From positions 1,665,452-1,729,451 of the forward strand of contig RPFO01000017.1 of NCBI GenBank assembly GCA_009746045.1: 64,000 nt of DNA, given 5' to 3'. The translations under genes were made by a program, and so were the position numbers. Positions 1-45,583 of the stretch are shown here, piece by piece (position 1 is the stretch's first letter; each line of letters starts with the position of its first letter). The notes under the pieces are model-generated. The model had not been told where the DNA came from. It saw only the letters and a list, made by a program, of their open reading frames with translations, and did not search any database. The stretch is from Mesostigma viride (Eukaryota; Streptophyta; Mesostigmatophyceae; Mesostigmatales; Mesostigmataceae).

Positions 1-3000
1 CTGACAGGCTGCACACACACGTACACACACCATGCACGCAATTAAGGGCCGGCATGCACACACACGTACATCCACCGCGCAAGCAAGGGGCGAGTGCACA
101 CACACGTACATCCACCGCGCAACCACGGGGCGGCTGCACTCACATGTACACACACCATGCACGCAAGGGGCGGCTGCACTCACATGTACATCCACCGCGC
201 ACGCAAGGGGCGGCTGCACACACACGTACACACACCATGCACGCAAGGGCCGGCATGCACACACACGTACACACACCATGCACGCAAGGAGCGACTGCAC
301 GCATACTTACACACACCGCGCACGCAAGGGGCGGCTGCACACACACGTACACACACCATGCACGCAAGGGCCGGCTGCACACACACGTACATCCACCGCG
401 CACGCAAGGGGCGGCATGCACACACACGTACATACACTGCGCACGCACGGGGCGACTGCACACACATGTACATCCACCGCGCACGCAAGGGGCGAGTACA
501 AACACATGTACATACACCGCGCACGCAAGGGGCGACTGCACACAAACGTACATCCACCGCGCACGCAAGGGCCGGCTGCACACACATGTACATACACCAT
601 GCACGCAAGGGGCGGCTGCACACACACGTACATACACCATGCACGCAAGGGGCGGCTGCACACACACGTACATCCACCGCGCACGCACGGGGCAACTGCA
701 CACACACGTACACACACCATGCACGAAAGGGACGGCTGCACACAAATGTACATCCACCGCGCACGCAAGGGGCGGCTGCACACACACGTACATCCACCGC
801 GCACGCAAGGGGCGGCTGCACTCACATGTACACACACCATGCACGCAAGGGGCGGCTGCACACACACGTACATACACCATGCACGCAAGGGGCGGCTGCA
901 CACACACGTACACACACCATGCACGCTTGGGGCGACGGCACATGTACATCCACCGCGCACGCAAGGGGCGAGTGCACACACACGTACATCCACCGCGCAC
1001 GCAAGGGGCGGCTGCACACACATGTACACACACCATGCACGCAAGGGGCGGCTGCACACACACGTACATACACCGCGCACGCAAGGGGCGGCTGCACACA
1101 CACGTACATACACCATGCACGCAAGGGGCGGCTGCACACACACGTACATACACCGCGCACGCACGGGGCAACTGCACACACACGTACACACACCATGCAC
1201 GAAAGGGACGGCTGCACACAAATGTACATCCACCGCGCACGCAAGGGGCGGCTGCACACACACGTACACACACCATGCACGCAAGGGCCGGCATGCACAC
1301 ACACGTACATCCACCGCGCACGCAAGGGGCAACTGCACACACACGTACACACACCATGCACGGAAGGGACGGCTGCACACAAACGTACATACACCGCGCA
1401 CGCAAGGGCCGGCTGCACTCACATGTACATACACCATGCACGCAAGGGGCGGCTGCACACACATGTACATACACCATGCACGCAAGAGGCGAGTGCACAC
1501 ACACGTACATACACCGCGCACGCAAGGGACGGCTGCACACACACGTACACACACCATGCACGCAAGGGCCGGCATGCACACACACGTACATCCACCGCGC
1601 ACGCAAGGGGCAACTGCACACACACGTACACACACCATGCACGGAAGGGACGGCTGCACACAAACGTACATACACCGCGCACGCAAGGGCCGGCGGCACT
1701 CACATGTACATACACCATGCACGCAAGGGGCGGCTGCACACACATGTACATACACCATGCACGCAAGGGGCGAGTGCACACACACGTACATACACCGCGC
1801 ACGCAAGGGACGGCTGCACACACACGTACACACACCATGCACGCTTGGGGCGACGGCACTCACATGTACATACACCGTGCACGCAAGGGGCGGCTGCACA
1901 CACACGTACATACACCGCGCATGCAAGGGGCGGCTGCACACACACGTACACACACCATGCACGCAAGGGCCGGCATGCACACACACGTACATCCACCGCG
2001 CACGCAAGGGGCGGCTGCACACACACGTACACACACCATGCACGGAAGGGGCGACTGCACACACACGTACATACACCGCGCACGCAAGGGGCGACTCCAC
2101 ACACACTGGAATACACCGCGCACGCAAGGGGCGAGTTCACACACACGTCAACACACCGCGCACGCAAGGGGCGGCTGCACACACATGTCCATCCACCGCG
2201 CACGCAAGGGGCGAGTGCACACACACGTACATACATCGCGCACGCAAGGGGCGGCAGCACACACATGTACACACACCATGCACGCAAGGGGCGGCTGCAC
2301 ACACACGTACATCCACCGCGCACGCAAGGGGCGGCTGCACACACATGTACATCCACCGCGCACGCAAGGGGCGAGTGCAAACACATGTACATACACCGCG
2401 CACGCAAGGGGCAACTGCCCACACATGTACATCCACCGCGCACGCAAGGGCTTGCTGCACTCACATGTACATACACCGCGCATGCAAGGGGCGGCTGCAC
2501 ACACAAGTAGACACACCATCCACGCAAGGGCCGGCATGCACACACACGTACATCCACCGCGCACGCAAGGGGCGGCTGCACACAAACGTCCATCCACCGC
2601 GCACGCAAGGGGCGGCTGCACACACACGTACATAAACCGCGCACGCAAGGGGCGAGTGGAAAAACATGTACATCCACCGCGCACGCAAGGGGCAACTGCA
2701 CACACACGTACATACACCGCGCACGCAAGGGGCGGCTGCACACACACGTACACACACCATGCACGCAAAGGCCGGCATGCACACACACGTACATACACCG
2801 CGCACGCAAGGGGCGGCTGCACTCACATGTACACACACCATGCACGCAAGGGGCGGCTGCACACACACGTCCATCCACCGCGCACGCAAGGGGCGGCTGC
2901 ACACACACGTACACACACCATGCACGCAAGGGCCGGCATGCACACACACGTACATCCACCGCGCACGCAAGGGGCAACTGCACACACACGTACACACACC

Positions 3001-3070
3001 ATGCACGGAAGGGGCGGCTGCACACACATGTACATCCACCGCGCACGCAAGGGGCGGCTGCACACACACG
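1..3070. repeat. 40-bp satellite array, left block
   Basis: The tandem unit is about 40 bp, with a core like GGGGCGGCTGCACACACACG followed by TACATCCACCGCGCACGCAA. Units vary at a few positions: CACCATGC or CACCGCGC, ACGTAC or ATGTAC, and a 41-bp form with GCCGGCATGCAC. Longer blocks recur, for example near 1285 and 1566 and again in the right block near 13466, which suggests unequal exchange. Because 40 is not a multiple of 3 and the unit has no stop codon, several frames on both strands stay open for hundreds of codons. I call no gene here. Confidence 0.97.
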
Positions 3071-3075
3071 TACAT
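3071..3075. other. Target-site duplication TACAT, left copy
   Basis: The last five satellite bases before the 5' LTR are TACAT. The same five bases follow the 3' LTR at 13330-13334. Removing the element and one copy restores a continuous satellite unit, which fixes the insertion site to the base. Confidence 0.93.
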
Positions 3076-3722
3076 AGTTAGCATTTTGGGCAACCAATAT
3101 GCTAAGTGGATGCAGTTTGGAAAGACCTTTCCAACGCCGTGCTGACCGCCTGAAACAGACAAGGGACGAGAAAGATATGAGGTCCCGAAGTCCTAGCCGT
3201 CCGTGGCCGACTAGGGTACAGTCCTCTGGTATAGTGGACAGGACACGTGGCAGGCCGTGCCTGCACAGGCTTAGCCTGACTATCACGTGACTGTGGTCCA
3301 CGTAGACCAGAGGAGCAGCAGCCTGTGGCTGGTGGAAAACAGGACTGGCACAGGTCTGCAAGGATACTAGGCCTTGCAGGCTTGTGACAGGTCCTGTACT
3401 TCCTAGGTTGCAGCGTCTAGGCAAATCCAGTTCGTCCTGGCTCTGCACTGATGCCAGTGGACGTTGAGGATTTGCTTGCCTGCCTGCACGTGCCTCGTCA
3501 TGCCGATGGGAACGAGGAACAACGCAAAGGATATAGCTTGGTCATGGGGGATGACCAGCGATCTTGGCAAGCACGAACCGAGGCTCCCACATTGGACGTG
3601 GAACCGCTCACCGTGGTCGTGGCTTGGTGCACGGGTTAAAGGTTGCTGCCTTTGCAACTTTGGCTTATCCCGTTGTGTGGCGTGAGAGACCAGGAACTCA
3701 CAGTTCTGGCTGCTCGCTAACT
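3076..3722 (+). repeat. 5' LTR of copia-1
   Basis: This 647-bp segment is repeated at 12683-13329. It begins AGTTAGC and ends GCTAACT, a perfect 7-bp terminal inverted repeat. Short ORFs inside it occur identically in both copies and are not genes. I could not recognise a tRNA primer-binding site just downstream (3723 onward); an internal or half-tRNA primer, as in some copia elements, is possible. Confidence 0.95.
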
Positions 3723-3754
3723 CGTACTATTGCATTTCTGTTTGCAAGGTTTTC

Positions 3755-4903
3755 ATGTCGGCCGAGGCTCGGGTCGAGACACCTGAGTCATCCCCCAGGC
3801 GCGAAGCAGCTCCCGAGTTGCCAGCGCGCGAAAACGCATTCTACCCCTATACTCACCCATCCAACGCTTCTACATTTGTGCTGGCAGCCTACGTTGGGAG
3901 GGGCCTTGCGGAAGGAGGTTGGGTAGCTGTGTTCGGTAACGCAGCGGGGCCGTCGGCAAACGACCCTGTGGTAATGAGGATAAGGGCGACGACGTCGCCA
4001 GGGGAAACAGGGCGGGTCTGCACGGAGCGCCTCGTCGCTATTCGCGACGAAATTGCTTCGTTGATCTACAGTTTAGAGGTTGCGTGCCAGGGCGGGCACG
4101 TCACCATTCAGGCGCTGGACTTAGCGCGTGAAACGCTGGGCCAACTGGTGGCCATCTGTTTAGGTGGAACCAGACTGTATAATCACTGGGTGGCGACAAG
4201 CTCGCTGGGGGAGGGGACCGACGCGTCACACATCATACGAGACGCGCAGACGCGCGAGGCCGATAGCCCGTGGGATTCGGCTGAAGTGGTGGCTCAAACG
4301 TGTGAGCACCTGGTCAACATTCTGATCCAAGAGGCGCGTGGTCACGCTGATCACTGGGTGATCACTACACGTCCACCAGGCATTTGGTCGACCTTGGACA
4401 CACCGAGGTTGCAGAGCAGGCCGGGGGCGTGTGGGCCAACGGTGACGGTCATCACCGGTCGGGAGGTCACCGACGAGGATTTTCACAACCAGTTCGTGGA
4501 CCGACCAACGGGCATCATAGCTCGGTCGTCACAGCAGATTGACGAAGGTGACGGCACAAACGAAAGCTACTCAGCTCGGCGTAGGGCGGAGTTGCATATA
4601 CCGTTTGAGCCGGAACACGATTTCGCTGAGATTGGTCGGGGGACACGGAACGACAGGCGGGGTGGTGGCAGCCGGTGGGTCAGGAATCTTCAGTGGTATC
4701 GCCGTGGCAGTGCGCCTAGACTGCCGGTAGAGCAGACAGCAGCCGGGAGGCCGGTGAGCCGTGTGCTAGGTCCTTACAACGCGGAGGAGGTCCGCTCAGT
4801 TCCACGCGTGGGGACACCGGTGGCACGCACAGCGCAGGAGCGTGAGGAGGAGGCAGCAGCTGGAGAGCAGCCAGCGGCTTCTTCAGGCAGCACCAGCGCT
4901 TGA
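3755..4903 (+). CDS. ORF-A: extra ORF between the 5' LTR and gag, unknown function
   Basis: This intact 382-codon ORF begins with ATG 33 bp after the LTR and ends with TGA about 50 bp before the gag ATG. It is GC-rich, acidic in its last 30 residues, and has a basic Arg/Gly-rich stretch around residues 290-330. I see no transmembrane segment, signal peptide or known catalytic motif. A smaller ORF in the same position (52056-52976) precedes gag in copia-2, so the layout LTR, ORF-A, gag is shared and the frame has probably been kept by selection. A structural or nucleic-acid-binding role would fit the basic patch, but this is inference. Envelope-like genes normally lie 3' of pol, so position argues against that. 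Confidence 0.75.
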   Translation: MSAEARVETPESSPRREAAPELPARENAFYPYTHPSNASTFVLAAYVGRGLAEGGWVAVFGNAAGPSANDPVVMRIRATTSPGETGRVCTERLVAIRDEIASLIYSLEVACQGGHVTIQALDLARETLGQLVAICLGGTRLYNHWVATSSLGEGTDASHIIRDAQTREADSPWDSAEVVAQTCEHLVNILIQEARGHADHWVITTRPPGIWSTLDTPRLQSRPGACGPTVTVITGREVTDEDFHNQFVDRPTGIIARSSQQIDEGDGTNESYSARRRAELHIPFEPEHDFAEIGRGTRNDRRGGGSRWVRNLQWYRRGSAPRLPVEQTAAGRPVSRVLGPYNAEEVRSVPRVGTPVARTAQEREEEAAAGEQPAASSGSTSA

Positions 4904-4956
4904 GCCTGTTCTTCCTTGTCTATCGCCTGTTTTGTTTTGCCATCCCACTGTATATA

Positions 4957-6009
4957 ATGCCTCGTGGCAAACCGGGAGACGGCGACAAGGGCGAGATGGA
5001 GGCACCGGCTGGAGCAAGCCAGGAGCCTCGGCAAGACAAGGAGCAGCTGGTGGGAGAGGCGATCCCAGCCAGCGACGGCGATGGGGGAAAAAGACCAGGC
5101 GGCAAGAGACGGCATGAAGACGCGGTGGAGGAGGCGCGCAAGGTGCGGGCAATAGGGCCAACGGATGCAATAACGGTGGCAAACGGGCAACCAGCCGTGG
5201 AGAAGCGTAAGAGGGACCCCTCCGCTGACGGCAATGGTAAGAGGCCTCATGTGGATGTGCTCTCCCCTGTGCCTGCTGGGCCAAGTGGTGCTGTTGTTGA
5301 GACACCCGCTGTGGTGGAGCCAGTGAGGGCGCTGCCAGGGTCGAGACCTCACATGAGTGCTGTCACTGTTATGAATGGACAAAAGCCTCTTAACCCACCA
5401 CTAGCACAGGAAGCTTTGGACAAGTGGCTTGAGGACATGGAGCTTGTTGTGTGCTCCGTGGACCCCACTGTCAATCTAGTGCAAGTGTTTCACTCGTCCA
5501 CGTGCAACAGGGACTCGTCAGAGCGTGTCAGGGAGAAGGCTAGGACTGCTGTCAAGGATAAGTTAACCTGGGCACAGTTCCTGGAAGGGTTGAGGGAGGA
5601 GTTCTCTGACAAGGTTCTCAACCTCACCAACTATTACAAGCATCAGTATGACACCTTTGAGATAGTGGGCCCTGTGGCAGAGGAATGGGCTAGGCTCAAC
5701 CGTATCAGGGACAAGGGGGCCAAGTATGGCTTCATGGTCACAGATAGGGCCTTGGCAGACTATTTCCTGGACCGTATGGGTTTGAGTGTGGATGGGAGGA
5801 ACGGTGCCGGCATGTTTCTTAACCAGACTGATGGCTCCTTGCGTGCTCTGGAGCTTGTAATCCTCAGCATAAGGAAGCCAGATCCTGCCTGCAAAGCTAT
5901 CCAGTCCCATGGCAGCAATGCCACCTCCGCTGTGCAGGGCCAAGGTGATGTCCCCGGGTACCCAGCCCGTGATGGGGCAAGGCCCAACAAGCGTAAGCAG
6001 TTACGTTAA
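4957..6009 (+). CDS. Gag, N-terminal and capsid part (interrupted)
   Basis: ATG at 4957 is the first methionine in this frame. The N-terminal 120 residues are charged and low in complexity. A helical capsid-like region follows from about residue 150, with the pattern LEDM, then TWAQFLEGLREEF, then FMVTDRALADYF. The copia-2 gag shows the same pattern at 60508-61302, supporting homology. The frame runs into the palindromic element at 5999 and stops at once (TAA near 6007). Its downstream half, including the zinc knuckle, is at 6889-7202. The frames on either side of the insert agree exactly once the insert and one TSD copy are discounted, giving a Gag of about 451 residues. Confidence 0.85.
   Translation: MPRGKPGDGDKGEMEAPAGASQEPRQDKEQLVGEAIPASDGDGGKRPGGKRRHEDAVEEARKVRAIGPTDAITVANGQPAVEKRKRDPSADGNGKRPHVDVLSPVPAGPSGAVVETPAVVEPVRALPGSRPHMSAVTVMNGQKPLNPPLAQEALDKWLEDMELVVCSVDPTVNLVQVFHSSTCNRDSSERVREKARTAVKDKLTWAQFLEGLREEFSDKVLNLTNYYKHQYDTFEIVGPVAEEWARLNRIRDKGAKYGFMVTDRALADYFLDRMGLSVDGRNGAGMFLNQTDGSLRALELVILSIRKPDPACKAIQSHGSNATSAVQGQGDVPGYPARDGARPNKRKQLR
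5994..5998. other. Target-site duplication TAAGC, left copy
   Basis: TAAGC directly precedes the palindromic element and is repeated right after it at 6884-6888. This shows that the element moved as a discrete unit into gag. Confidence 0.92.
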
Positions 6010-6883
6010 ATAGTGCCGGAACCTTTTGCCGCCTGAGGCAAATCGGTCCGTCACACTATTTTGCCCGGAATAACCACTTCCGAGCACCCAAGTTAATTCG
6101 GCCGAATTAACTTGGGTGCTCGGAAGTGGTTATTCCGGGCAAAATAGTGTGACGGACCGATTTGCCTCAGGCGGCAAAAGGTTCCGGCACTATTTAACGT
6201 AACTAAAACCTGGCCTCGTGGAGGGGGGACGAAGAGCCCGAGACATCCGCCTAGGCCGCTGAGCACGCACCACTAAATGCGCCGGAGCTGCCTCAGTGAG
6301 GATTCGAACCCCTGACCTCCAAGGTGCACAGGTTTTAGTTACGTTAAATAGTGCCGGAACCTTTTTGCCGCCTGAGGCAAATCGGGCCGGAACACTATTT
6401 TGCCCGGAATAACCACTTCCGAGCACCCAAGTTAATTCGGCCGAATTAACTTGGGTGCTCGGAAGTGGTTATTCCGGGCAAAATAGTGTGACGGACCGAT
6501 TTGCCTCAGGCGGCAAAAGGTTCCGGCACTATTTAACGTAACTAAAACCTGTGCACCTTGGAGGTCAGGGGTTCGAATCCTCACTGAGGCAGCTCCGGCG
6601 CATTTAGTGGTGCGTGCTCAGCGGCCTAGGCGGATGTCTCGGGCTCTTCGTCCCCCCTCCACGAGGCCAGGTTTTAGTTACGTTAAATAGTGCCGGAACC
6701 TTTTTGCCGCCTGAGGCAAATCGGGCCGGAACACTATTTTGCCCGGAATAACCACTTCCGAGCACCCAAGTTAATTCGGCCGAATTAACTTGGGTGCTCG
6801 GAAGTGGTTATTCCGGGCAAAATAGTGTTCCGGCCCGATTTGCCTCAGGCGGCAAAAAGGTTCCGGCACTATTTAACGTAACT
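5999..6883. mobile_element. Palindromic element 1 (P-S-P-S'-P) inserted in gag
   Basis: This 885-bp element contains three palindromes, each starting AGTTACG and ending CGTAACT: 5999-6204 (206 bp, perfect), 6337-6543 (207 bp, near-perfect) and 6676-6883 (208 bp, perfect). All centre on AATTCGGCCGAATT. They are separated by a 132-bp spacer (6205-6336) and its reverse complement (6544-6675). The arms exist as two sequence types: the first palindrome is A/A', the third B/B', and the middle one has a B left arm and an A right arm. The spacer carries GGTTCGAATCC, a match to the tRNA T-loop/pol III B box. It encodes no protein and matches no standard class I know. The 5-bp TSD and AGTTA...TAACT ends resemble the LTR ends of the host retrotransposon. 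Confidence 0.9.
6205..6336 (-). other. Spacer S of palindromic element 1 with tRNA-like T-arm
   Basis: Read on the minus strand, the spacer contains CACCTTGGAGGTCAGGGG followed by TTCGAAT and a partly complementary CCTCA. This looks like the 3' half of a tRNA with a weakened T-stem. An inverted copy lies at 6544-6675 on the plus strand. The spacer begins AAAACCTGG and ends CAGGTTTT, so it also has short inverted ends. I found no convincing A box or acceptor stem, so it is unlikely to be a working tRNA. A pol III promoter relic or a primer-related module is possible. Confidence 0.55.
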
Positions 6884-6888
6884 TAAGC

Positions 6889-7202
6889 GCTTCAGGCGCC
6901 AGAGGCAAGGGGCTCAGGGTGGCAAGGGTGCAGGTTCCCAAGGAGGGGTTGGGAGCCAGCAAGCTGGTGGTCAGCAGGGTAAGGGTGGCCAAGGGCAAGG
7001 CAAGGGCCAAGCTCAAGGCAACCAGGGCAAGCAGGGTGGGCAGTCTCAGGGAGGCCAGGGGAAGCCTGGCAAGGGTGGGGCTGGGTCTGGGAAGAAGGGT
7101 GGGCCATGCTTTGTGTGTGGCAAGGAAGGTCACTGGCGTCGTGAGTGTCCTGACAGGAAGGCCAAGCCTGCTGGGGCAGGGGGCCAGTCTGGGCAGCAGT
7201 GA
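6889..7202 (+). CDS. Gag, C-terminal nucleocapsid part with CCHC knuckle
   Basis: This is the continuation of the gag frame after the inserted element. It encodes a Gly/Gln/Lys-rich basic tract of about 70 residues and then a retroviral zinc knuckle CFVCGKEGHWRREC (C-X2-C-X4-H-X4-C), which binds RNA during packaging in this family. The frame ends at TGA 7200-7202, and pol continues in the same frame. The start given is only the end of the target-site duplication, not an initiation site. Confidence 0.9.
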
Positions 7203-7206
7203 CTAG
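7200..7206 (+). promoter_or_regulatory. Candidate stop-codon readthrough site TGA CTAG between gag and pol
   Basis: The gag stop is TGA followed directly by CTAG. UGA-CUA(G) is an established leaky stop context, known from alphaviruses, some plant viruses and some animal genes. The next codons stay open in the same frame for over 1 kb through integrase. A readthrough Gag-Pol is therefore the simplest reading of the layout, though translation was not observed. Confidence 0.6.
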
Positions 7207-8258
7207 CATCATCCCCTGTAAATAGTCAATCACCCCTTGGGGAAGGTGTGCTGGATGTACATAAGGATGGGGGTGTGCCCCTTGTGCAGCACCAAGGGTG
7301 TAAAGATGTTGTTCTTCCACTGGATTGCAATAACAATGCTGCAGCTGAATTCCCTATGCCTCATGCAGGTGGTGGGTCTCCAGCAGGTGCTGGCCTGGAG
7401 GGCCAAGGGACCTTGCTGGAAGGGCCTGGAGCGGTCCAGGGTGCAGGACCTGACTTGGGGCGTCAGGACGGCCTGCAGGGAAGCCCTGGAACCTCAGGAG
7501 TGGATCATGTGTCCCCACACACGGTTCAGACGTCTCGCCAGGTCAGTACTGACAGAGTGCTGAGCTATGCTGAGGCTGGCCATAGGTTGCATCACATGTT
7601 TGGGCATTCTGGGCAGGCAGCAATGTTTGCTTGGAAGCTAGGTAGGGAGCCTTTGTGGGAGGCTTGCCAGGCTGCTGCTGAGAACTGTGGTTGCCAGGAG
7701 AATGCTGTTCACCCACCTCAGTCCCATGCTAGGGAGCCTGCTAGGGAGCGTGGCGACATCCAGATGGATATCCAGCATATCAGGGGCTTGTATATATTGG
7801 TGGGGGTGGACAGGTTCAGCAGATACAGGCTGATAGACGTTCTGCCTGGTATGCAGGAGCACCACTTGTTGTTGGGTATGAAGGCCCTGATCCCAGGCTT
7901 TGGGGTGTGCAAGAGTGTGCAGGCAGACTTGCAGTTTGACTGTTTGCTCAAGCATCAGGACCAGCTGCCTTGTAAGCTGGTAGTAGTCCCCAGGGAGAGT
8001 CATGGGCAGCAAGGGGCTGTAGAGAGATCCATACGTGAAGTGAAGACAGTGGTGCTAGCAGCAGAGTCAGTGCCACTTGTGGCATCTGCCTTAGAGAGGG
8101 CAGCCTGGTGTAAGGGGATAGAAGAGCAGCTGAACCACAGGGTTAACTATTACTTTGATGGTGTGGCTGTCTCTCCCCTGGCCCTGCAGTATAGCTTGTT
8201 GCCTGAGAACGTGGTGCAGGCCAGTCTTAGGAAGGCAGATAGGTTTTTGCCCAGCTGA
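7203..8258 (+). CDS. Pol part 1: copia-type integrase
   Basis: The frame is continuous with gag across the TGA. The first 110 residues are Gly-rich and carry no recognisable protease motif. A zinc-binding N-terminus follows (HHMFGHSGQ, later NCGCQEN), then the catalytic core: first Asp in IQMDIQHIRGLYILVGVDRF, second Asp in VQADLQFD, and Glu in HGQQGAVERSIREVK. This is the D, D, E set that joins cDNA ends to the target. The frame ends with TGA at 8256-8258. The integrase C-terminal region is encoded in the next frame from 8243, so a single frame break lies between 8243 and 8255. Confidence 0.88.
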   Translation, partial: LASSPVNSQSPLGEGVLDVHKDGGVPLVQHQGCKDVVLPLDCNNNAAAEFPMPHAGGGSPAGAGLEGQGTLLEGPGAVQGAGPDLGRQDGLQGSPGTSGVDHVSPHTVQTSRQVSTDRVLSYAEAGHRLHHMFGHSGQAAMFAWKLGREPLWEACQAAAENCGCQENAVHPPQSHAREPARERGDIQMDIQHIRGLYILVGVDRFSRYRLIDVLPGMQEHHLLLGMKALIPGFGVCKSVQADLQFDCLLKHQDQLPCKLVVVPRESHGQQGAVERSIREVKTVVLAAESVPLVASALERAAWCKGIEEQLNHRVNYYFDGVAVSPLALQYSLLPENVVQASLRKADRFLPS

Positions 8259-10768
8259 GACGTAAGGACAAGAACTGGAATGTGCTGAGGCCTCAGGTGG
8301 GGCTGAAGGTCAGGATGTGGAAGGAACCATCTATTCCAGGCAAGCGGGGGAAGTGGCAGGATGGGGTTGTCACTCGTGTGGAGGAAGCTAACAGATCTTG
8401 CCTGGTGGCTTTGGAAAAGGATCCAAGGCACGTGTACAGGTTGTCCTGGGCTCATGTCAAGGAAAGAAGGCCACATGCAATCTGGCCTGCAGACGGGCCA
8501 GGCCCTCCCAGCTGGGTTGAGGAGCCAGGCCAGAGCCAGGCAGCAGCAGCTAACAATCCTCTGGTGGTGGATGATGGTCTGTCCCTGCTGGAAGATGACG
8601 AGCAGGAGGCTGCTGAAGCAACTGTCACAAGGCCAGAGGGGACGGGGCAGCCACCTAAGGCCCGGGGGCCTCTCATGGCGGACGTCATCCGAGCACTCAT
8701 GCGCAGCAAACATGATCCCAAGGTATCCAAGCTCACGGGGTGGGGGTCGTGCTGGGCAGCTACAATGGAGGTAGATACCAACTCACAGGTGTCTGTCATC
8801 AGGGAAGAGGATGCTGTAGGCTTACAGATGTCCCATCCCAGTTGCCTTGCTGTGTCTGATTTCTCAGGAAAGGTGTCCATGAAGATCCTTGGGGAAGTGA
8901 GTGTGCCTATCTTAGGGGTGCCCACCACGTTCTGTGTGGTAGAGGGCTATCAGGGGCCTGCCATTCTGGGTCAGAACTTCTTGTGCATGCCAGGGGTTAC
9001 TTTGACCTCTGATGAGTTGGCACTAGAAGGCAGGGGCAGCCTCCCCCTTGAAAGATATCACTATTCCCAGGGTCTTGCAGTGGCGGTGAAGGCTGTTAGG
9101 AGTCAGCCAGCTGAGGGTCCTCAAGGTCAGGAGCCCATAGCTGAGGACTTGTTGATAATCCCAACCACCTTTGATCCAAGGCAGTTAGGGGTAAACAGGT
9201 ACCAGATAGCTGCTCACAGTCCTATTCCCTGGCGCCAGCTAGTCGAGATGATGCAAAGCCCCAAGATGGCTAAGGCATGGACTCTTGGCTTTGTTGCTTC
9301 TGGGCATGAGTGGATAGTTTCCAACTGTGCAGAACCTGTGGATGAGCTGCCAGAAGTTCACCAGCTGCTCAGATTGATGTTTGTCCTCAAGCTCAAGGAG
9401 GTAGATGGTGTCCAGGTGCCACATGTCAGACCAGTTGTAACCGAGTATCATGGCACTGGCCAGTTGTTAGATGAGGAGCTCTATACTCCAGGGATGCTGC
9501 ATGACACGTGGAGGATTCTGCTGTGTATATTTCTGTCTTTTCTGGTTAAGGGTGTGCCCTATAGCTCTGTGCTGATTGATTTCAAGAGGGCTTTTCTCAA
9601 GGGTGACCAAGATCAGGCTAGGCAGACTTGGAGAGATATCCCTCCTTTCTTTGTGACTGTACCTGCTGTATGGAGAGCAGAGATAAAGGCCAGGTACCTG
9701 AGAATTCTGAAAGGGTTGGAAGGTCTCAGGTCCAGTCCCATTATCTGGAGAAAGAGCCTAGAGAAATTCTTGAAGAATACTTGTGGGTTTTCTGTGTCTC
9801 CAGTGGATCCCTGTTTGTTCCAAGGGTCCCACAATGGCCTTCCTGTCTTTGCCTCACTGCATGGTGATGACCTGCATCTCATAGGTCCACCAGACTGGGT
9901 TGAGGCTGTCTTGGCTAAGATCCAGAAGCGGTTTGAGCTGGGTAAGATACAGCACATGGTGGAGAATGAGCCTATGGTCTTCTGTGGCATGCAGGCTACG
10001 TTGTTCCAAGCCAAGGGCTCGTGGTTCATCAGGATGGAGGGTGGTAAGGACTACCCACAGCAGATTGTAGATGCATTGCAGGAGCCCATCACGCAGGCTA
10101 GGTGTGCTACCATCAGGGGCATGCTGGCATGGCTTGCAAGTATATGTGCCCCTGACTTGCTGGTTCTGAGTCGACTTACTGATTCCCAGCTGGTTGAGGT
10201 GGGTGCTGAGAGTGTGGTGCAGGCTGTCATGATGTCTCCCCCTCTCATACTGGGTCCTGTGGATTTGTACAAGCCCCTTGACATGGTTCTCTATGTGGAC
10301 AGTTCTATGGATAATAGGAAGGTCACAGAGGTCAGGGGCAGGGCAGCAGCATTAGTTACCCTGGAGCAAGATCACACCTCACTTGTTACCTGGTACAGTC
10401 GGTTGCAGAACAGGGTTACACCCAGCAGTGATATTGCTGAGTGCAGGGCAATCTGTGAAGGGCTGCATACTGCTCTTTACTTGAGGGAGCTCTTCTACCA
10501 GCTATGTCAAGTGGCTTCCTGTAGGTTGCAGCTGCACACACTGGTGAGGACTGATAGCATGGGCATGGTGCAATTTGTGCACAGGCAGCTGGCCAGAAGC
10601 AGGGACCTTGACTACTTGTTGCTCAAGGAGATGTCCTACCTAGCTCACATTGAACATGTGCCTGGTGTGGACAACCCTGCAGATGCCCTCACCAAGCTGG
10701 AGGAGAAGGCGGAGAGGCAGTACCCCCTGCTCCGTGGGCTCATGGACCCCTTACACGGGCGGCCATAG
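8243..10768 (+). CDS. Pol part 2: integrase C-terminus, retropepsin-like domain, RT and RNase H
   Basis: The frame opens right after TAG at 8240-8242. Domains in order are: a basic integrase tail (VGLKVRMWKEP); a retropepsin-like segment around residues 175-265 with MEVDTNSQVSVI in place of DTG and the usual hydrophobic AILGQNFL end; a reverse transcriptase with LIDFKRAFLKGD and LHGDDLHLIG (HGDD instead of YVDD); and a copia RNase H with YVDSSMDNRK, TWYSRLQNRVTPSSDIAECR and VPGVDNPADALTK. It ends with TAG at 10766-10768. The DTN catalytic triplet would be expected to impair a classical protease. The protease-like segment lies after integrase, unlike standard copia order. Confidence 0.88.
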   Translation, partial: VFAQLRRKDKNWNVLRPQVGLKVRMWKEPSIPGKRGKWQDGVVTRVEEANRSCLVALEKDPRHVYRLSWAHVKERRPHAIWPADGPGPPSWVEEPGQSQAAAANNPLVVDDGLSLLEDDEQEAAEATVTRPEGTGQPPKARGPLMADVIRALMRSKHDPKVSKLTGWGSCWAATMEVDTNSQVSVIREEDAVGLQMSHPSCLAVSDFSGKVSMKILGEVSVPILGVPTTFCVVEGYQGPAILGQNFLCMPGVTLTSDELALEGRGSLPLERYHYSQGLAVAVKAVRSQPAEGPQGQEPIAEDLLIIPTTFDPRQLGVNRYQIAAHSPIPWRQLVEMMQSPKMAKAWTLGFVASGHEWIVSNCAEPVDELPEVHQLLRLMFVLKLKEVDGVQVPHVRPVVTEYHGTGQLLDEELYTPGMLHDTWRILLCIFLSFLVKGVPYSSVLIDFKRAFLKGDQDQARQTWRDIPPFFVTVPAVWRAEIKARYLRILKGLEGLRSSPIIWRKSLEKFLKNTCGFSVSPVDPCLFQGSHNGLPVFASLHGDDLHLIGPPDWVEAVLAKIQKRFELGKIQHMVENEPMVFCGMQATLFQAKGSWFIRMEGGKDYPQQIVDALQEPITQARCATIRGMLAWLASICAPDLLVLSRLTDSQLVEVGAESVVQAVMMSPPLILGPVDLYKPLDMVLYVDSSMDNRKVTEVRGRAAALVTLEQDHTSLVTWYSRLQNRVTPSSDIAECRAICEGLHTALYLRELFYQLCQVASCRLQLHTLVRTDSMGMVQFVHRQLARSRDLDYLLLKEMSYLAHIEHVPGVDNPADALTKLEEKAERQYPLLRGLMDPLHGRP

Positions 10769-10878
10769 AGACCAGGCCTTGCTTCAGCTTGGGTGTCCCC
10801 AGTGGGCTGCTTGACCAAAGTACCAAGTGGTGACTGGTGCTTACTGGTTGACAGCCGGTCCTTCAGGGTTAGGTACAC

Positions 10879-10883
10879 CCTCC
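10879..10883. other. Target-site duplication CCTCC, left copy
   Basis: CCTCC precedes the second palindromic element and is repeated immediately after it at 11778-11782. Confidence 0.92.
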
Positions 10884-11777
10884 AGTTAGGTGAAATAGTG
10901 CCGGAACCTTTTTTGCCGTTGGGGCAAATCGGTCCGGAACACTATTTTGCCCGGAATCACCACTTCCGAGCACCCAAGTTAATTCGGCCGAATTAACTTG
11001 GGTGCTCGGAAGTGGTGATTCCGGGCAAAATAGTGTTCCGGACCGATTTGCCCCAACGGCAAAAAAGGTTCCGGCACTATTTCACCTAACTAAAACCTGG
11101 CCCCGTGGAGGGGGAGTCGAATAGACCTGGAGACAACCGCCTGGGCTAGTGCACGCAAATGATATTGCGTCGGAACTGTCTCTGGCAGGTTTCGAACCCC
11201 TGACCTCCAAGGTGCACAGGTCTTAGTTAGGTGAAATAGTGCCGGAACCTTTTTGCCGTTGGGGCAAATCGGTCCGGAACACTATTTTGCCCGGAATCAC
11301 CACTTCCGAGCACCCAAGTTAATTCGGCCGAATTAACTTGGGTGCTCGGAAGTGGTGATTCCGGGCAAAATAGTGTTCCGGACCGATTTGCCCCAACGGC
11401 AAAAAGGTTCCGGCACTATTTCACCTAACTAAGACCTGTGCACCTTGGAGGTCAGGGGTTCGAAACCTGCCAGAGACAGTTCCGACGCAATATCATTTGC
11501 GTGCACTAGCCCAGGCGGTTATCTCCAGGTCTATTCGACTCCCCCTCCACGGGGCCAGGTTTTAGTTAGGTGAAATAGTGCCGGAACCTTTTTTTTTGCC
11601 GTTGGGGCAAATCGGTCCGGAACACTATTTTGCCCGGAATCACCACTTCCGAGCACCCAAGTTAATTCGGCCGAATTAACTTGGGTGCTCGGAAGTGGTG
11701 ATTCCGGGCAAAATAGTGTTCCGGACCGATTTGCCCCAACGGCAAAAAAAAAGGTTCCGGCACTATTTCACCTAACT
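10884..11777. mobile_element. Palindromic element 2 (P-S-P-S'-P) in the 3' untranslated region of copia-1
   Basis: The plan is that of the element at 5999: palindromes at 10884-11091 (208 bp), 11225-11430 (206 bp) and 11564-11777 (214 bp), each starting AGTTAGG and ending CCTAACT, with spacers 11092-11224 and 11431-11563 as inverted copies. The three palindromes differ mainly in a T run of 6, 5 or 9 bases, and each T run is matched by an A run of the same length in its own other arm. The spacer has GGTTCGAAACC in the tRNA-like position. It shares AATTCGGCCGAATT and the adjoining GAGCACCCAAGTT with element 1 but differs in its outer arms, so this is a related subfamily and not a copy. Confidence 0.9.
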
Positions 11778-11782
11778 CCTCC

Positions 11783-12662
11783 TGGACAGGAGTTGGTGTG
11801 GAATGTCACTCCTACCAGCTGAGAATCATGCCTGGCCCTCCCCATGGGGTTCAGAAGAGTCGCCAGGACTTAAGTCGACGCCTTTGGCCTCAAACAGTTA
11901 GGCCATGCAAGGGCAACCCGAATGTTGGTTCTTACAGGTTGCTGTACATATGTTTTCTAGTGCTTGTTTCCAACCTGTTGCTAATAAAGAACCTGGTTGA
12001 GTGACCATGTGGAACATGGTTGCCAGGGGGCCACATTCTGGGTTATATAATGCTTGAATAAAACATAATCATGTCATGTCATTCTCATGTTGTTCCCATG
12101 GTTGCATGTAATGTTTCTCTTGTGTAAAGTTCCAGGTCACCTATAAACCTGGAGGTTGGGGTGGGGTTCAATTCCCCAGCAGAGCCACAGCCTGGCATGA
12201 GTGATTCCTGGGCTTAACACCCAGTGAAGACATGGGCTCCCCAATAAGGCAGTATTTGTACAGGTGCTACCTGAGTCTCTTTGAGCATAAAAGGGAAAGG
12301 CTGGCCAAGGCGGGCGCCATAAGAACGGGCGCCTGTGATAACTGTGAAAGATCAGGAACTCACAATAGTACGTTCTTGGCATCCTGTAATCCCAGCCATT
12401 GGACTAGGTAATGTGCCTTGACTTTAATCTAGCACCAAGTTCCCAAGGAAAGGTTGGGAGCTGACCAAGGGGTCAGGGGATAACCTGGGGTGACCTCTGA
12501 TTCACTGGCCAGTACACCTAGCCTGGTCCAAGGGCAGATATGTTGTTACCCAAAGGAGGCAGGAACCTGGGCCCTCAAAGGTCTGATCAACCTCAAGGGA
12601 CCAAGCGGTCTGTGGCTGAGTGGGCACAAGCAAGGTTAGGCTTGTTTCAAGCTGGTCCAGCT
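11783..12662 (+). other. Noncoding 3' region of copia-1
   Basis: No ORF shows motifs. The region contains AATAAAG-type and TGTAA motifs around 11980-12130 that could serve in 3'-end formation. Near 12150 there is a perfect T-arm-like hairpin, TGGGG-TTCAATT-CCCCA, preceded by CCTGGAGGTTGGGG, which resembles the tRNA-like part of the palindromic-element spacers. Confidence 0.6.
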
Positions 12663-12682
12663 CCAAAAGAAGAAAGGGTTGG
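12663..12682 (+). promoter_or_regulatory. Polypurine tract of copia-1
   Basis: The purine-rich run CCAAAAGAAGAAAGGGTTGG directly abuts the 3' LTR, the normal place for the plus-strand primer of LTR retrotransposons. Confidence 0.75.
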
Positions 12683-13329
12683 AGTTAGCATTTTGGGCAA
12701 CCAATATGCTAAGTGGATGCAGTTTGGAAAGACCTTTCCAACGCCGTGCTGACCGCCTGAAACAGACAAGGGACGAGAAAGATATGAGGTCCCGAAGTCC
12801 TAGCCGTCCGTGGCCGACTAGGGTACAGTCCTCTGGTATAGTGGACAGGACACGTGGCAGGCCGTGCCTGCACAGGCTTAGCCTGACTATCACGTGACTG
12901 TGGTCCACGTAGACCAGAGGAGCAGCAGCCTGTGGCTGGTGGAAAACAGGACTGGCACAGGTCTGCAAGGATACTAGGCCTTGCAGGCTTGTGACAGGTC
13001 CTGTACTTCCTAGGTTGCAGAGTCTAGGCAAATCCAGTTCGTCCTGGCTCTGCACTGATGCCAGTGGACGTTGAGGATTTGCTTGCCTGCCTGCACGTGC
13101 CTCGTCACGCCGATGGGAACGAGGAACAACGCAAAGGATATAGCTTGGTCATGGGGGATGACCAGCGATCTTGGCAATCACGAACCGAGGCTCCCACATT
13201 GGACGTGGAACCGCTCACCGTGGTCGTGGCTTGGTGCACGGGTTAAAGGTTGCTGCCTTTGCAACTTTGGCTTATCCCGTTGTGTGGCGTGAGAGACCAG
13301 GAACTCACAGTTCTGGCTGCTCGCTAACT
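12683..13329 (+). repeat. 3' LTR of copia-1
   Basis: This 647-bp copy of 3076-3722 differs by three substitutions that I can see. It ends GCTAACT and is followed by the TSD TACAT (13330-13334), after which the satellite resumes in register. Confidence 0.95.
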
Positions 13330-16300
13330 TACATCCACCGCGCAACCACGGGGCGGCTGCACTCACATGTACACACACCATGCACGCAAGGGGCGGCTGC
13401 ACACACACGTACATACACCGCGCACGCAAGGGGCGGCTGCACACACACGTACACACACCATGCACGCAAGGGCCGGCATGCACACACACGTACATCCACC
13501 GCGCACGCAAGGGGCAACTGCACACACACGTACACACACCATGCACGGAAGGGACGGCTGCACACAAACGTACATACACCGCGCACGCAAGGGCGGCTGC
13601 ACTCACATGTACATACACCATGCACGCAAGGGGCGGCTGCACACACATGTACATACACCATGCACGCAAGGGGCGAGTGCACACACACGTACATACACCG
13701 CGCCTGCAAGGGACGCCTGCACACACACGTACACACACCATGCACGCTTGGGGCGACGGCACATGTACATCCACCGCGCACGCAAGGGGCGATCGTGCAC
13801 ACACACGTACATCCACCGCGCACGCAAGGGGCGGCTGCACACACATGTACACACACCATGCACGCAAGGGGCGGCTGCACACACACGTACATACACCGCG
13901 CACGCAAGGGGCGGCTGCACACACACGTACACACACCATGCACGCAAGGGCCGGCATGCACACACACGTACATCCACAGCGCACGCAAGGGGCAACTGCA
14001 CACACACGTACACACACCATGCACGGAAGGGGCGGCTGCACACACATGTACATCCACCGCGCACGCAAGGGGCGGCTGCACACACACGTACATCCACCGC
14101 GCACGCAAGGGCCGGCTGCACTCACATGTACATACACCGCGCATGCAAGGGGCGGCTGCACACACACGTACACACACCATGCACGCAAGGGCCGGCATGC
14201 ACACACACGTACATACACTGCGCACGCACGGGGCGACTGCACACACATGTACATACACCATGCACGCAAGGGGCGGCTGCACACACATGTACATACACCG
14301 CGCACGCAAGGGGCGAGTGCAAACACATGTATGTACATACACCGCGCACGCAAGGGGCAACTGCACACACATGTACATCCACCGCGCACGCAAGGGGCGG
14401 CTGCACACACATGTACATACACCATGCAGGCAAGGACAAGGATGCACACACATGTACACACACCATGCACGAAAGGGGCGGCTGCACACACACGTACATA
14501 CACCGCGCACGCAAGGGGCGGCTGCACACACATGTACATACACCATGCACGCAAGGACAAGGATGCACACACATGTACACACACCATGCACGCAAGGGGC
14601 GGCTGCACACACACGTACATACACAATGCACGCTTGGGGCGACGGCACTCACATGTACATACAGTACACCATGCACGCAAGGACAAGGATGCACACACAT
14701 GTACATACACCGCGCACGCAAGGGGCGGCTGCACACACATGTACATACACCGCGCACGCAAGGGGCGAGTGCGCACACACGTACATACACCGCGCACGCA
14801 AGGGGCGAGTGCACACACACGTACATACACCGCGCACGCTGTTGGGCCGGCTGCACTCACATGTACATACACCATGCACGCAAGGGGCGGCTGCACACAC
14901 ATGTACACAAACCATGCACGGAAGGGACGGCTGCACACAAACGTACATCCACCGCGCACGCAAGGGCCGGCTGCACACACACGTAAACTACACACACCAT
15001 GCACGCAAGGGCCGGCTGCACACACATGCACGTACACACACCATGCACGCAAGGGGCGGCTGCACACACATCAGTACACACACCATGCACGCAAGGGGCG
15101 GCTGCACACACACGTACACACACCGCGCACGTAGATCCACCGCGCACGCAAGGGACGGCTACCCACACACGTACATCCACTGCGCACGCACGGGGCGACT
15201 GCACACACATGTACATACACCATGCACGCAAGGGGCGGCTGCACACACACGTACATACACCGCGCACGCAAGGGGCGAGTGCAAACACATGTACATACAC
15301 CATGCACGCAAGGGACGGCATGCACAGAAACGTACATACACCGCGCACGCAAGGGGCAACTGCACACACACGTACACACACCATGCACGGAAGGGACGGC
15401 TGCACTCACATGTATTTACACTGCGCACGCAAGGGGCGGCTGCACACACACGTACATACACCGCGCACGCAAGGGGCGAGTGCAAACACATGTACATACA
15501 CCGCGCACGCAAGGGGCAACTGCCCACACATGTACATACACTGCGCACGCAAGGGGCGGCTGCACAGAAACGTACACACACCGCGCACGCAAGGCCCGGC
15601 TGCACTCACATGTACACACACCATGCACGCAAGGGGCGGCTGCACACACATGTACATACACCGCGCACGTAGATCCACCGCGCACGCAAGGGACGGCTAC
15701 CCACACACGTACATCCACTGCGCACGCACGGGGCGACTGCACACACATGTACATACACCATGCACGCAAGGGGCGGCTGCACACACATGTACATACACCG
15801 CGCACGCAAGGGGCGAGTGCAAACACATGTACATACACCATGCACGCAAGGGACGGCATGCACAGAAACGTACATACACCGCGCACGCAAGGGGCAACTG
15901 CACACACACGTACACACACCATGCACGGAAGGGACGGCTGCACTCACATGTATTTACACTGCGCACGCAAGGGGCGGCTGCACACACACGTACATACACC
16001 GCGCACGCACGGGGCGACTGCACACACATGTACATACACCATGCACGCAAGGGGCGGCTGCACACACATGTACATCCACCGCGCACGCAAGGGGCGAGTG
16101 CAAACACATGTACATACACCGCGCACGCAAGGGGCAACTGCCCACACATGTACATCCACCGCGCACGCAAGGGCCGGCTGCACTCACATGTACATACACC
16201 GCGCACGCAACTTAGGGGCGGCTGCACACACACGTACACACACCATGCACGCAAGGGCCGGCATGCACACACACGTACATACACCGCGCACGCAAGGGGC

Positions 16301-16538
16301 GGCTGCACAGAAACGTACACACACCGCGCACGCAAGGGCCGGCTGCACTCACATGTACATACACCGCGCACGCAAGGGGCGGCTGCACACACACGTACAC
16401 ACACCATGCACGCAAGGGCCGGCATGCACACACACGTACATACACCGCGCACGCAAGGGGCGGCTGCACAGAAACGTACACACACCGCGCACGCTGTTGG
16501 GCCGGCTGCACACACATGTACATACACCTTGCACGTAC
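13330..16538. repeat. 40-bp satellite array, right block
   Basis: This is the continuation of the left block on the other side of the retrotransposon. Local variants include ACAAGGATGCACACACATG units near 14430-14690, and a roughly 360-bp internal duplication offset by 538 bp (near 15121 and 15659, both with GTAGATCCACCGCGCACGC). The array decays into CA-rich sequence after 16530. The long HTHVHTPCTQG-type and CVCSRPLRA-type frames are repeat artefacts on the two strands. Confidence 0.97.
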
Positions 16539-33779: not shown

Positions 33780-34362
33780 GGTTACGCCCTGGCTCCTCTC
33801 TATTCCCAAACGCCTAGCCTGACTTCACCTAAACTAGTGAGGGTACCTAGTGATGAGGAGCTATGTTGTGGAAAGACCTGGGACGTCGACTCTGTTCTCA
33901 ATGCATTCTATTATAATACGCCATACACCGAATAAAACCAGGGTACTACGAAGGAAACAATACTACACTGCCATGACCCTAGCTAATATGTGTTAATTCA
34001 TAACACACGCCGGGTGCCATTCACGAAGGACAACTGCTGCATAAATGATCGCCGACAGGCGTGTATGCTCGGGCCGACATCGACCCTCGCCTACAGGACC
34101 AACGCACGTCCACAAGGTTCACACGCACGATAAAAGGACCACTACTAAAGTACGCAGCGCGGCGCGCCTGCACCGAACCACCATACTCTGATTCGAACCA
34201 CCATACTGTACAATTGCCACGTCACAAGGCCCGGTACCGACCGGCCAAAAGGTCCTAACTACACGTAAGCCTAGGAAAGTCAGCGAACTGTTCCGGAATG
34301 GCTGAGGCAACAAAGGACCTAATTTACGTCCGTAACAACAACAAAAGTTACGCGACGTAACA
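33780..34362 (-). repeat. 3' LTR of the gypsy element (left copy)
   Basis: The sequence is identical by eye to 51322-51904 apart from its first base. It contains AATAAAACC near 33930 and a T-arm-like GATTCGAACC near 34190. The 65-codon ORF present in both copies is not a gene. Confidence 0.95.
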
Positions 34363-34380
34363 CCTCCCCCCCCACAAAGG
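34363..34380 (-). promoter_or_regulatory. Polypurine tract of the gypsy element
   Basis: The complement of CCTCCCCCCCCCACAAAG gives CTTTGTGGGGGGGGGAGG directly before the 3' LTR, the expected plus-strand primer. Confidence 0.8.
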
Positions 34381-34802
34381 TAGGGAGCCCTCTCCCTACG
34401 TACAGGGAGGAAACCAAAGGGGTAGGAATTTAACCTAACGCACCCAACAAAAGCCTAACACAATCGACTAACCATCCAAGGCCCAAAGCAAAAACATGTT
34501 AACCTCGGGTCCACCCCAAACGGTGTAGGGATCACCAGCACCACGCCGGGTGTGAGGCTCCCCTAACTGCCTTGCACGGAGGCTTGCCGGGAGGGACGGC
34601 ACTAGGCAGGACACGCGTAGGAAACAATGTTCACACCGAGGACAGAGAACGGCCAACCAACTGGCCAAGCCCAGAGGGCGACTCTATATATCGGAGGGAC
34701 AACACCCTCAGGTCGGGCCTAGAGCCCTCTGTCTACACACCAGTAGCCTGACAAGTACCACGGGTGGTCAAAAGCACCGCCATGTACGCCCGGTGATGAG
34801 CA
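34381..34802 (-). other. Gypsy internal region between the nested TIR element and the 3' LTR
   Basis: About 420 bp show no ORF with motifs. This is noncoding 3' sequence of the gypsy element, contiguous with 44802 before the nested insertion. Confidence 0.6.
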
Positions 34803-35309
34803 CACTATACTTTTCGTCCGAGGGTAGTAAAAATGATCCGAGGCGTAAATTACGAGGTCTTATCTTACTACCTAGATACGAGGCGTGAGATCCAACGCCG
34901 TAATCATTACTACCTATCATCCTACGTAGTAATTTTACTAGCCGTAAGTAAGAGTAACGTTACGACTGCACATCTTTGGTAGTACATTACCGACAGAGTA
35001 AATTACCGCGACGGGTCTTGGTTGGTAATCTACCACCTGTAGATTAGGTGCCAGTGATCCGATGCTGTAAGATACGTTTCAGTAAGTTACTTCGGGGATC
35101 TTTGCCTGTACACGGCCAGATGGATAATTATATTGTAATGGAGAAGTGGGAGAACGTGCGTGTCTATTAGCAAATGCAGCGAAATATAAAAATGTAGTTA
35201 TCAGCCTTTTTCGCCTATTCAGCAGTTGTCGTTGTCGGCCGTTGTCAGTAAGCGGCTATAGATTATGTGTGCTGGGGCCGGTGAAAAGACGCTAGCAAAG
35301 TTCGTCTGA

Positions 35310-36420
35310 ATGGCGTCCAATAGAGGGGATTTTATTGTTAGTGGATTGTTGGACGAGGAGAAGGCGAGGTTGCTGGCGGAGAATGCGAAAGAGCAGAGGG
35401 AAGCAGCGGAAGCCGTGCGTGGAAGATGAGGTAACGGGATGGAGTGTGGGCCCTGGCTTCTGGTTATGAAATGATGGCGGTTGCAGGCCAGCCGTGCTCG
35501 CTGGTAATGGGTGCGTGGTGTTGAAATCCAAGTTCTGCGCGTATTCTGTTTTTTGGTCAATGATTGAAGGGATGTCGCCTTGTTTTATTTTTGTGCATCT
35601 GCGTCCCGTCGTGACTGCCTCGTCATGGACGCCCAGGGGTAGAAGTTCGAACGAGGGAATGATTTTTCAAACGCCTGGATATGTTATGATAGTACGAATA
35701 AATGGTAATGGGTAGAGGCGGCCAAAATTTTGTTGGAAGTGTGCCAACGCCGCACATACGACTTGAACAACCCTAGGTATCTTAGGAAAAGGAAACACGG
35801 ATACGTCGGAGTGGAGGAAGAGGAAGACGATGACGATGGTGAAGACGGAGAGGTTTACAATGGAGGCCTTGAGAATGGGGAGACATTGAAGCAGGAGAGC
35901 AGGGTAGCGGTGAGTGGCCCGTCATGAATTACATTGTGGTTGCAGTTGTTAGCGAGGCGTGTTGATTGCTTCTTGCCGCGGGTAATCGCTAGCGTGCATA
36001 ACCTTCTTTTTTCAACAGGTGTTCTGGTGCATTGACTGCCGCAAAGCAATTCATGGGACTGATTATGTGCCTATCATGCCGTTTGGGAATCATACATTGC
36101 CAACATTTCGTGTTTAGAAGGCGCGCCTTCAGAAGCATATTCAGCACCGCACGAGCCAGGTGCTGAAGGCGTGCTTGGAGAGGAAGGGGTATAAAGTGCG
36201 CATGACCGCATCGAAGAAGAAGAAGCAGCAGGAATCGGGCAAGACCATGATAACCGAGCCAGGATTGGCTTTCGTGCATGCAGTACATGGTGCGGCGCAG
36301 GCAGTGAATGCTGCATCGATTGCAGCGGTGCAGCCTGTGGCCATGGCGGTGCAGGGCGCGGGTCCTGAAGTGTGGGCGTTGGCGAAGCAGATTCACGATG
36401 CTGTCATGGCCACGTTGTGA
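35310..36420 (+). CDS. Exon-like segments of an unrecognised plus-strand gene in the 10-kb element
   Basis: The segments are MASNRGDFIVSGLLDEEK... (35310-35414, donor GTGCGT), an acidic segment with EEEEDDDDGEDGEVYNGG (about 35730-35911, donor GTGAGT), and after acceptor TTTTTCAACAG a segment with FWCIDCRKAIHGTDYVPIMP (36020-36115, ending in TAG) followed in frame by LQKHIQHRTSQVLKACLERK to a TGA at 36418-36420. CXXC followed by HXXXH spacing could be a diverged zinc finger. One stop interrupts the last segment, so the gene may be dead or spliced differently. Exon joins are inferred. Confidence 0.35.
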
Positions 36421-37203
36421 AGCCAAGGAATGGGTGTTGGTTCCAGTCAGGTGCCTCGCCCGGAGGAAGCTTTTCTGCTGTAAGCAGAGGTGCGGCATCA
36501 AGCATTTGCAATCGCCATGAGAGCAGTGGAGATGTCAGCGGCATGAAGCATTTGCAATCGCCATGAGAGCAGTGGAGATGTCTGCGGCATTGGGAGATCT
36601 GCAGACAATTGCAGGAGGACATTGTGCGGTACGCTTGTAGGGTGTAAGCTGTGTTGTTCCGCTCGCTAATGGACATGTGCCCCTGTAACCTCTTCCAGGC
36701 TAGTATCTGCTATCCACCTCTTCAGGCTTGAAAAGTAAATTGCTGTACGGTTCACAATTGGCATGGCTTGACATGCACGCGTCCTTGACTGTGGTCTGCA
36801 TGGGTTTGGGGTTTAGCGGTTTACATCAGACTCTGCTGTGTATCTGCTTAATCAGCCGACGTGTCACATGGGGACAGCAACGGCGCTGGGATGCAGCCCG
36901 GTGTGAATGCGAGTAAGGTACGCGCTGGCATGCATGGCGGATGGGGCGTGGAAGCCACGACCCACGTTTTTGTGTGTGCACGGGGGGCTAGGGGGCAAGT
37001 CGTTGTGTTGCTGCCATCCATATGGCCATGGATATGCGGGAAGCTTTCCCTGTACCCATACTTAATGATGCATGGACTGGTTGTGACAGCCAAGGGTTTA
37101 GCTGTCGTGGGTTTGCTGAGTGATCATGGCAGTCTGCTAGGCTGGTGCTAGAACAGCCATAGCGCGGTTACTGCTATGTCTTGCCCGTGCTAACTGATGC
37201 TGC

Positions 37204-40010: not shown

Positions 40011-40011
40011 G

Positions 40012-40735: not shown

Positions 40736-40739
40736 GATA

Positions 40740-42081: not shown

Positions 42082-42084
<3 letters not shown>

Positions 42085-42167
<83 letters not shown>
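42085..42167. repeat. (CT)n microsatellite, about 41 copies
   Basis: A pure dinucleotide run of about 83 bp. Confidence 0.97.
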
Positions 42168-42170
<3 letters not shown>

Positions 42171-45500: not shown

Positions 45501-45583
45501 CAACTAGAGGTTGTGCAGGTTTTCACTCAACCAAACATAGGTAATCTTCCCAGTCACTACCAGACGGGTCCATTTACATAATG

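Follow-up and report, generated by a model that had tools for sequence, protein, structure and literature searches.

The window, which is the whole 64,000-nucleotide stretch of Mesostigma viride DNA analysed here, contains a single Ty1/copia element (3076-13329) that carries two repetitive insertions, E1 and E2 (Table 1). E1 spans 885 bp and reads P-S-P-S'-P, wherein three palindromes of 206, 207 and 208 bp are separated by two spacers. An earlier reading of this DNA, made from the sequence alone, had described palindromes of 206 to 208 bp that alternate with a spacer and its inverted copy, a clean 5-bp target-site duplication (TSD) of TAAGC around the unit, and the arm types A/A', B/A' and B/B'. 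Measurement bears out this description: S' is an exact reverse complement of S, the TSD is present on both sides, and arm type B is real, differing from A by three substitutions and by a T-run that is longer by one T. E1 as a whole also constitutes one palindrome, and the B-box-like ends of both spacers face the middle palindrome.

The predicted fold of E1 as single-stranded DNA has an energy of -604.5 kcal/mol, compared with a mean of -142 kcal/mol (s.d. 4.8) for 20 dinucleotide shuffles. A 20-mer from the palindrome core occurs 12 times in the window and is absent from 100 shuffles. The second insertion, E2, has T/A runs of 6/6, 5/5 and 9/9 in its palindromes of 208, 206 and 214 bp, respectively. 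Its 133-bp spacer is diverged from that of E1, and the two copies of this spacer differ at one base.

Table 1. Positions of the insertions, of the resident copia element and of neighbouring repeats, numbered from the first nucleotide of the window.
Feature	Position	Strand	Length	Remarks
E1	5999..6883	.	885 bp	three-palindrome form
E1 left TSD	5994..5998	.		TAAGC
E1 right TSD	6884..6888	.		TAAGC
E1 P1	5999..6204	.	206 bp	perfect palindrome, arms A/A'
E1 spacer S	6205..6336	+	132 bp	B-box-like motif near 3' end, adjoining middle palindrome
E1 P2	6337..6543	.	207 bp	middle palindrome, hybrid arms B/A'
E1 spacer S'	6544..6675	-		exact reverse complement of S
E1 P3	6676..6883	.	208 bp	arms B/B'
B-box-like motif in S'	6570..6580	+		GGTTCGAATCC
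B-box-like motif in S	6300-6310	-		mirror copy of GGTTCGAATCC
E2	10884..11777	.		family F2; P 208 / T 133 / P 206 / T' 133 / P 214; TSD CCTCC
copia 5' LTR	3076..3722	+	647 bp	AGTTAGC...GCTAACT; element TSD TACAT
copia reverse-transcriptase region	8282..10768	+		RVT_2 match below Pfam cut-off
copia polypurine-tract-like stretch	12665..12682	+		before 3' LTR
copia 3' LTR	12683..13329	+		3/647 differences from 5' LTR
Tandem array	1-3075, 13330-16535			40- and 81-base spacing
Gypsy-like element	33780-51905	-		called by eye from ORF

The copia element appears to have inserted into a long tandem array, open in several frames, that is present on both of its sides. Its LTR tips, AG...CT, are non-canonical. 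When 55 of 8,803 candidates were scored, its reverse-transcriptase region gave at least 55 matches at 98-100% identity, with that of the window included. This result, together with the few differences between the two LTRs, points to a copia that is both abundant and recent. Of three hits from a protein search with the pol of this element, one is labelled Mesvir1 and shares 70% identity across 18% of the query. The tips AGTTAGC...GCTAACT or TCTAACT with a 5-bp TSD are carried by the window copy and by three of ten further copies examined, and the 5' tip was located in six of these ten. Probably the missed tips lie beyond the fetched 801-bp stretches or have diverged. A copia relative about 59% identical in part of pol (C557) has a 3' LTR that starts with AGTTAACG behind a purine tract. 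This LTR start is all that was found in a search for paired LTRs around C557 and a second relative, C1.

There are 1,629 places that match the 30-bp palindrome core with at most three mismatches in the 439.9 Mb of genome searched (2243 contigs), and the reversed control yields none. Our sample of the families F1 and F2 comprises the places listed by the first search and 22 clusters among the first 50 listed pattern matches. A related family, F3, was discovered adjoining two of the fetched F1/F2 places, and 20 of the places listed for it were added. After deduplication by flank, there are 47 F1/F2 and 20 F3 elements or pieces, 67 in total, and all three families are built on one common plan. 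An exact 5-bp TSD flanks 57 of the 67, with 53 different TSD sequences. The base beyond the TSD matches in only 14 of these 57, which is the level expected by chance, and thus the TSD length is 5. Listing the flanking 5-mers, a check that the sequence-only reading had proposed, therefore shows that copies do not generally lack TSDs; the ten exceptions include fragments, pieces truncated where the fetched stretch ends and copies that lack a duplication. The element is real and abundant, and its near-identical copies and the young copia that contains some of them suggest recent activity.

Elements with one to five and with seven palindromes were found, including both the one- and the two-palindrome forms that the same reading had proposed to look for. 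Among the 22 first-listed rows, in which forms were counted, nine are P-S-P-S'-P, three have four palindromes, one has five and one is a solo P. Four more have two palindromes (three with and one without a TSD), and the remaining four are broken or odd. The two spacers converge in 35 of 35 three-palindrome copies (18 F1, one F2 and 16 F3), and they still do so in L057, an F3 three-palindrome copy whose first palindrome is truncated and which lacks a TSD. All six four-palindrome copies of F1 read S S S' or the mirror of this order, and the five- and seven-palindrome arrays alternate. This is what would be expected if the unit of three palindromes is the basic one and exchange between palindromes gives rise to larger forms.

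The palindromes begin with AGTTA and end with TAACT in the sampled elements, with one copy that has GCAACT. These terminal pentamers and the 5-bp TSD are the same as those of the resident Ty1/copia, although the latter is coding and has directional LTRs. The shared termini, the TSD length, the many recent copia copies and the LTR start of C557 make the copia integrase the likeliest inserter. For this assignment it is mainly the first and the last base that count, because the gypsy-like element in the window has the similar tips TGTTACG...CGTAACA and a 5-bp TSD, CACAC. The LTRs of this element are identical and 583 bp long, and the first base of the tip differs in one LTR. The copia LTR has no blastn match (E up to 1e-5) to the fetched P-bearing loci except for the window's own copy. 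Three P elements (L025, L019 and L037) are located within or beside pol of other copia relatives.

A partner of the Polinton/virophage type was also considered, as such elements have AG...CT tips and TSDs of 5-6 bp. Neither a palindrome core of 24 bases nor an arm pattern of 24 bases is matched exactly in IMG/VR, and this idea became unnecessary in view of the copia match. The palindrome core likewise has no exact match in prokaryotic species genomes.

Near the spacer end that adjoins the middle palindrome, members of F1, F2 and F3 carry GGTTCGAATCC or GGTTCGAAACC, reading outward, the former of which we take to be a T-arm/B-box-like motif. A weak A-box-like stretch, recognised by eye, lies some 65-70 bases upstream inside the palindrome arm, and a T-run is present in the next palindrome. 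This arrangement would suit outward transcription by Pol III, starting in the middle palindrome. The putative 218-nt transcript is predicted to form a long terminal stem (-116.3 kcal/mol, a value with no shuffle baseline). Ending at the T-run, such a transcript would miss the palindrome centres, and thus would not be a full template by itself. The spacer had been called tRNA-like, which is apt for its B-box/T-arm-like stretch and goes no further, as ARAGORN detects no tRNA in the whole window and Rfam gives no match there at gathering thresholds. A tRNA gene or SINE is unsupported by the same searches. Moreover, insertions of a tRNA-derived SINE would have the variable-length TSD and the simple-repeat or poly-A tail of the LINE type, in place of which the element has a fixed 5-bp TSD and mirror-image ends.

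The ancestry of the two halves was assessed with 15 intact F1 three-palindrome copies. Most differences between P1 and P3 (20 of 25) are variants common to other elements, and the same is true for 38 of 45 differences between S and S', which derive mostly from a small number of copies that have two spacer subtypes. Because these differences are mostly shared polymorphisms, the data do not support snap-back within a single molecule as the only origin. Nor do they support simple homogenisation of the two ends in the manner of LTRs, given that P1 and P3 often differ and that the outermost arms (1L-3R) are identical in only 4 of 18 cases. In one chimeric element (L010, 331-1209), an F3 half and an F1 half are joined within the middle palindrome and share one TSD, ACGCT. 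This two-family element and the shared P1/P3 variants mean that mixed arms are better explained by the joining of two molecules. The proposal that the element formed from copies with different ends, perhaps via a hairpin or template switch, thus survives in that different-ended copies took part, whereas a single hairpin explains the data less well.

In F1, the outer palindrome at either end has identical arms in 12 of 15 copies, compared with 5 of 15 for the middle palindrome. When all F1/F2 forms with a TSD are pooled, 52 of 71 outer and 21 of 43 inner palindromes are symmetric (Fisher p 0.015). Halves are closer within than between elements, both in F1 (S-S' p=0.01, outer palindromes p=0.001) and in F3 (U-U' spacer and outer palindromes p=0.0002). 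This suggests that dimers keep re-forming or get homogenised, and gene conversion, which palindrome arms undergo, could also explain the likeness of halves. For the F1 outer palindromes, the likeness counts against the joining of random molecules alone. The F3 palindrome centre is asymmetric and is kept so in most copies, and the F3 copies compared exhibit no contrast in symmetry between outer and middle palindromes. These features argue against routine hairpin regeneration through the centre. There is one F3 copy (L073) whose middle palindrome has turned fully symmetric. In another element (L011, 728-1503), the middle palindrome is shortened and includes, as judged by eye, 25 bp copied in reverse from the host flank on the left, which indicates that in-place template switching also happens.

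The F1 palindromes are too symmetric for the orientation of the outer repeats to be read. Of the 16 intact F3 three-palindrome copies with a TSD, 15 have outer palindromes in inverted and not in direct orientation (the exception is L060), and both two-palindrome F3 copies read P+ U P-. This is evidence against classic LTR synthesis, which should give direct repeats. On inspection of F1, F2 and F3 elements, no primer-binding site (PBS) is evident next to P, where the sequence is AAAACCTGG in F1 and F2 and AAAACGTCG in F3, and a TGG located 6 nt in occurs in F1/F2 only. Inspection also reveals no polypurine tract before the 3' P, which is preceded by ...AGGTTTT or ...AGGTCTT; in contrast, two copias have purine tracts before AGTTA. 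Standard LTR synthesis leaves the inverted F3 repeats and the lack of an evident PBS or polypurine tract (PPT) unexplained, and we therefore do not class the element among the TRIMs.

Self-complementary AAV and parvovirus dimer replicative forms have the order palindrome-genome-palindrome-inverted genome-palindrome. The likeness to our element is one of topology; no replication gene is seen in the element, and its TSD is of the integrase type. A more extensive comparison can be made with TRIMp3 (Cassandra, Helenus and Ajax). The available text on this group describes short, non-coding elements that depend on LTR retrotransposons, with terminal repeats in excess of internal parts, some arrays, a Pol III-type motif and, in fungal and plant Helenus, a 5-bp TSD (Kojima 2024; PMC10886601). 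The LTRs described there are direct, have a PBS and PPT, and include the tRNA-like part (PMC10886601). The terms 'palindrom', 'inverted' and 'dimer' do not occur in the main text of that paper (PMC10886601).

Relative to TRIMp3 as portrayed in that text, the likeness extends to the short, non-coding body, the terminal-repeat excess, the arrays, the TSD, the Pol III-type motif and the proposed dependence on an LTR retrotransposon. The TSD falls within the 4-5 bp of TRIM and TRIMp3 elements, being exactly 5 bp in the 57 sampled cases, and the AGTTA...TAACT termini of P are common with a resident autonomous LTR element. Direct terminal repeats are what is missing in F3, where orientation can be read. 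The other differences from TRIMp3, so described, are that the repeats are palindromic, that no PBS or PPT is evident, that the spacer is what contains the B-box-like part, and that insertion is usually as an inverted dimer. The sequence-only reading had held that the element fits no standard class. Its link to known classes is nearer than that, because its termini and TSD length match those of the resident Ty1/copia. The element may work like a TRIM in the last step only, and is best called a non-autonomous LTR-type element, possibly in a separate class. As far as the literature searched shows, it is undescribed, with no account found of palindromic-LTR or inverted-dimer elements of this kind.

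The reading that we prefer, with about as much confidence as doubt, is that this non-autonomous, non-coding element is inserted by a copia integrase after being joined as a dimer through its palindromic repeats. The terminal repeats, as near-perfect palindromes with AGTTA...TAACT ends, would form the ends of a linear DNA that is inserted by an AGTTA-type Ty1/copia integrase with a 5-bp TSD. Their self-complementarity would let two single-stranded copies pair at their promoter-side ends and prime each other. Most simply, an RNA intermediate would be involved and the paired strands would be minus-strand cDNAs from two RNAs in one copia particle, since copackaging seems the simplest setting by analogy with known retroelements. 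The product would be P-S-P-S'-P, in which the spacers converge, the middle palindrome is a hybrid and the outer ones possibly derive from different parents. Forms with one, two, four, five or seven palindromes might then result from recombination between palindromes or from further switching. Mutual priming of two same-sense strands predicts a fixed polarity, mixed halves, a hybrid middle palindrome and a cross-family chimera, each of which is observed. The integrase assignment is better supported than the route of dimerisation. We suggest only tentatively that palindromic repeats replace directional LTRs altogether, and that an inverted heterodimer, formed when two different RNAs or cDNAs anneal at their palindromic ends and inserted by the copia integrase, is a normal stage of the life cycle.

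Foldback/Galileo-type DNA transposons and MITEs are non-coding and have long inverted repeats and strong secondary structure, all of which our element shares, as it does the combination of terminal inverted repeats with a TSD of fixed length. Perhaps each P-S-P-S'-P copy is a single inverted repeat, its arms about 441 bp long, that is moved by a DDE transposase with 5-bp TSDs, wherein the nested palindromes at the ends come from hairpin or gap-repair copying. The inverted F3 outer repeats, the near-perfect symmetry, the arm-symmetric F1 outer palindromes and the fact that no coding capacity was noted agree with such an origin. We nevertheless consider it unlikely, because the tips match a retrotransposon, with tips and TSD length equal to those of copia LTRs, and because an F3/F1 chimera within one TSD better suits template switching. 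Nor did the analysis come across an autonomous DNA element with such ends.

We are equally doubtful that a P-S-P monomer, or an inherited ancestral dimer, was inserted and that dimers were then built and homogenised in the chromosome through replication template switching, unequal exchange and gene conversion. The reverse flank copy seen by eye in L011 is the kind of trace that in-place switching leaves, the junctions of broken copies coincide with the palindrome centre or adjoin it, the four-, five- and seven-palindrome arrays resemble exchange between palindromes, and gene conversion would give the likeness of halves. However, random switching would not yield one polarity in every three-palindrome copy across three families, and shared polymorphisms at separate sites with intact TSDs, along with the chimera, favour a join that precedes insertion. 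A well-known fault of long-read libraries is the formation of inverted dimers, and palindromic sequence might have been misassembled in this way. An assembly artefact of this type, which the sequence-only reading had named as a possible refutation, is very unlikely given that the architecture recurs with an exact TSD at 57 flank-distinct sites. Furthermore, the report on the published assembly (442 Mb in 2363 scaffolds) gives 113x PacBio coverage and a read N50 of 11.2 kb, far above the 0.9-kb unit (PMC6947507).

If dimerisation before insertion by the copia integrase is correct, then an LTR-retrotransposon integrase can mobilise DNA with palindromic rather than ordinary LTR ends, and the many insertions are a natural record of strand-switch joining of two retroelement copies. 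If the heterodimer is moreover a regular stage, dimerisation belongs to the life cycle and is no accident. The alga in which these families reside stands at the streptophyte base, and their numerous large, dispersed, near-perfect palindromes would be well suited to testing how unstable palindromes are in an algal chromosome. There are four independent broken copies (L006, L013, L041 and L030) whose junction is located at or adjoining the palindrome centre GGCC, in the manner of palindrome-mediated breakage.
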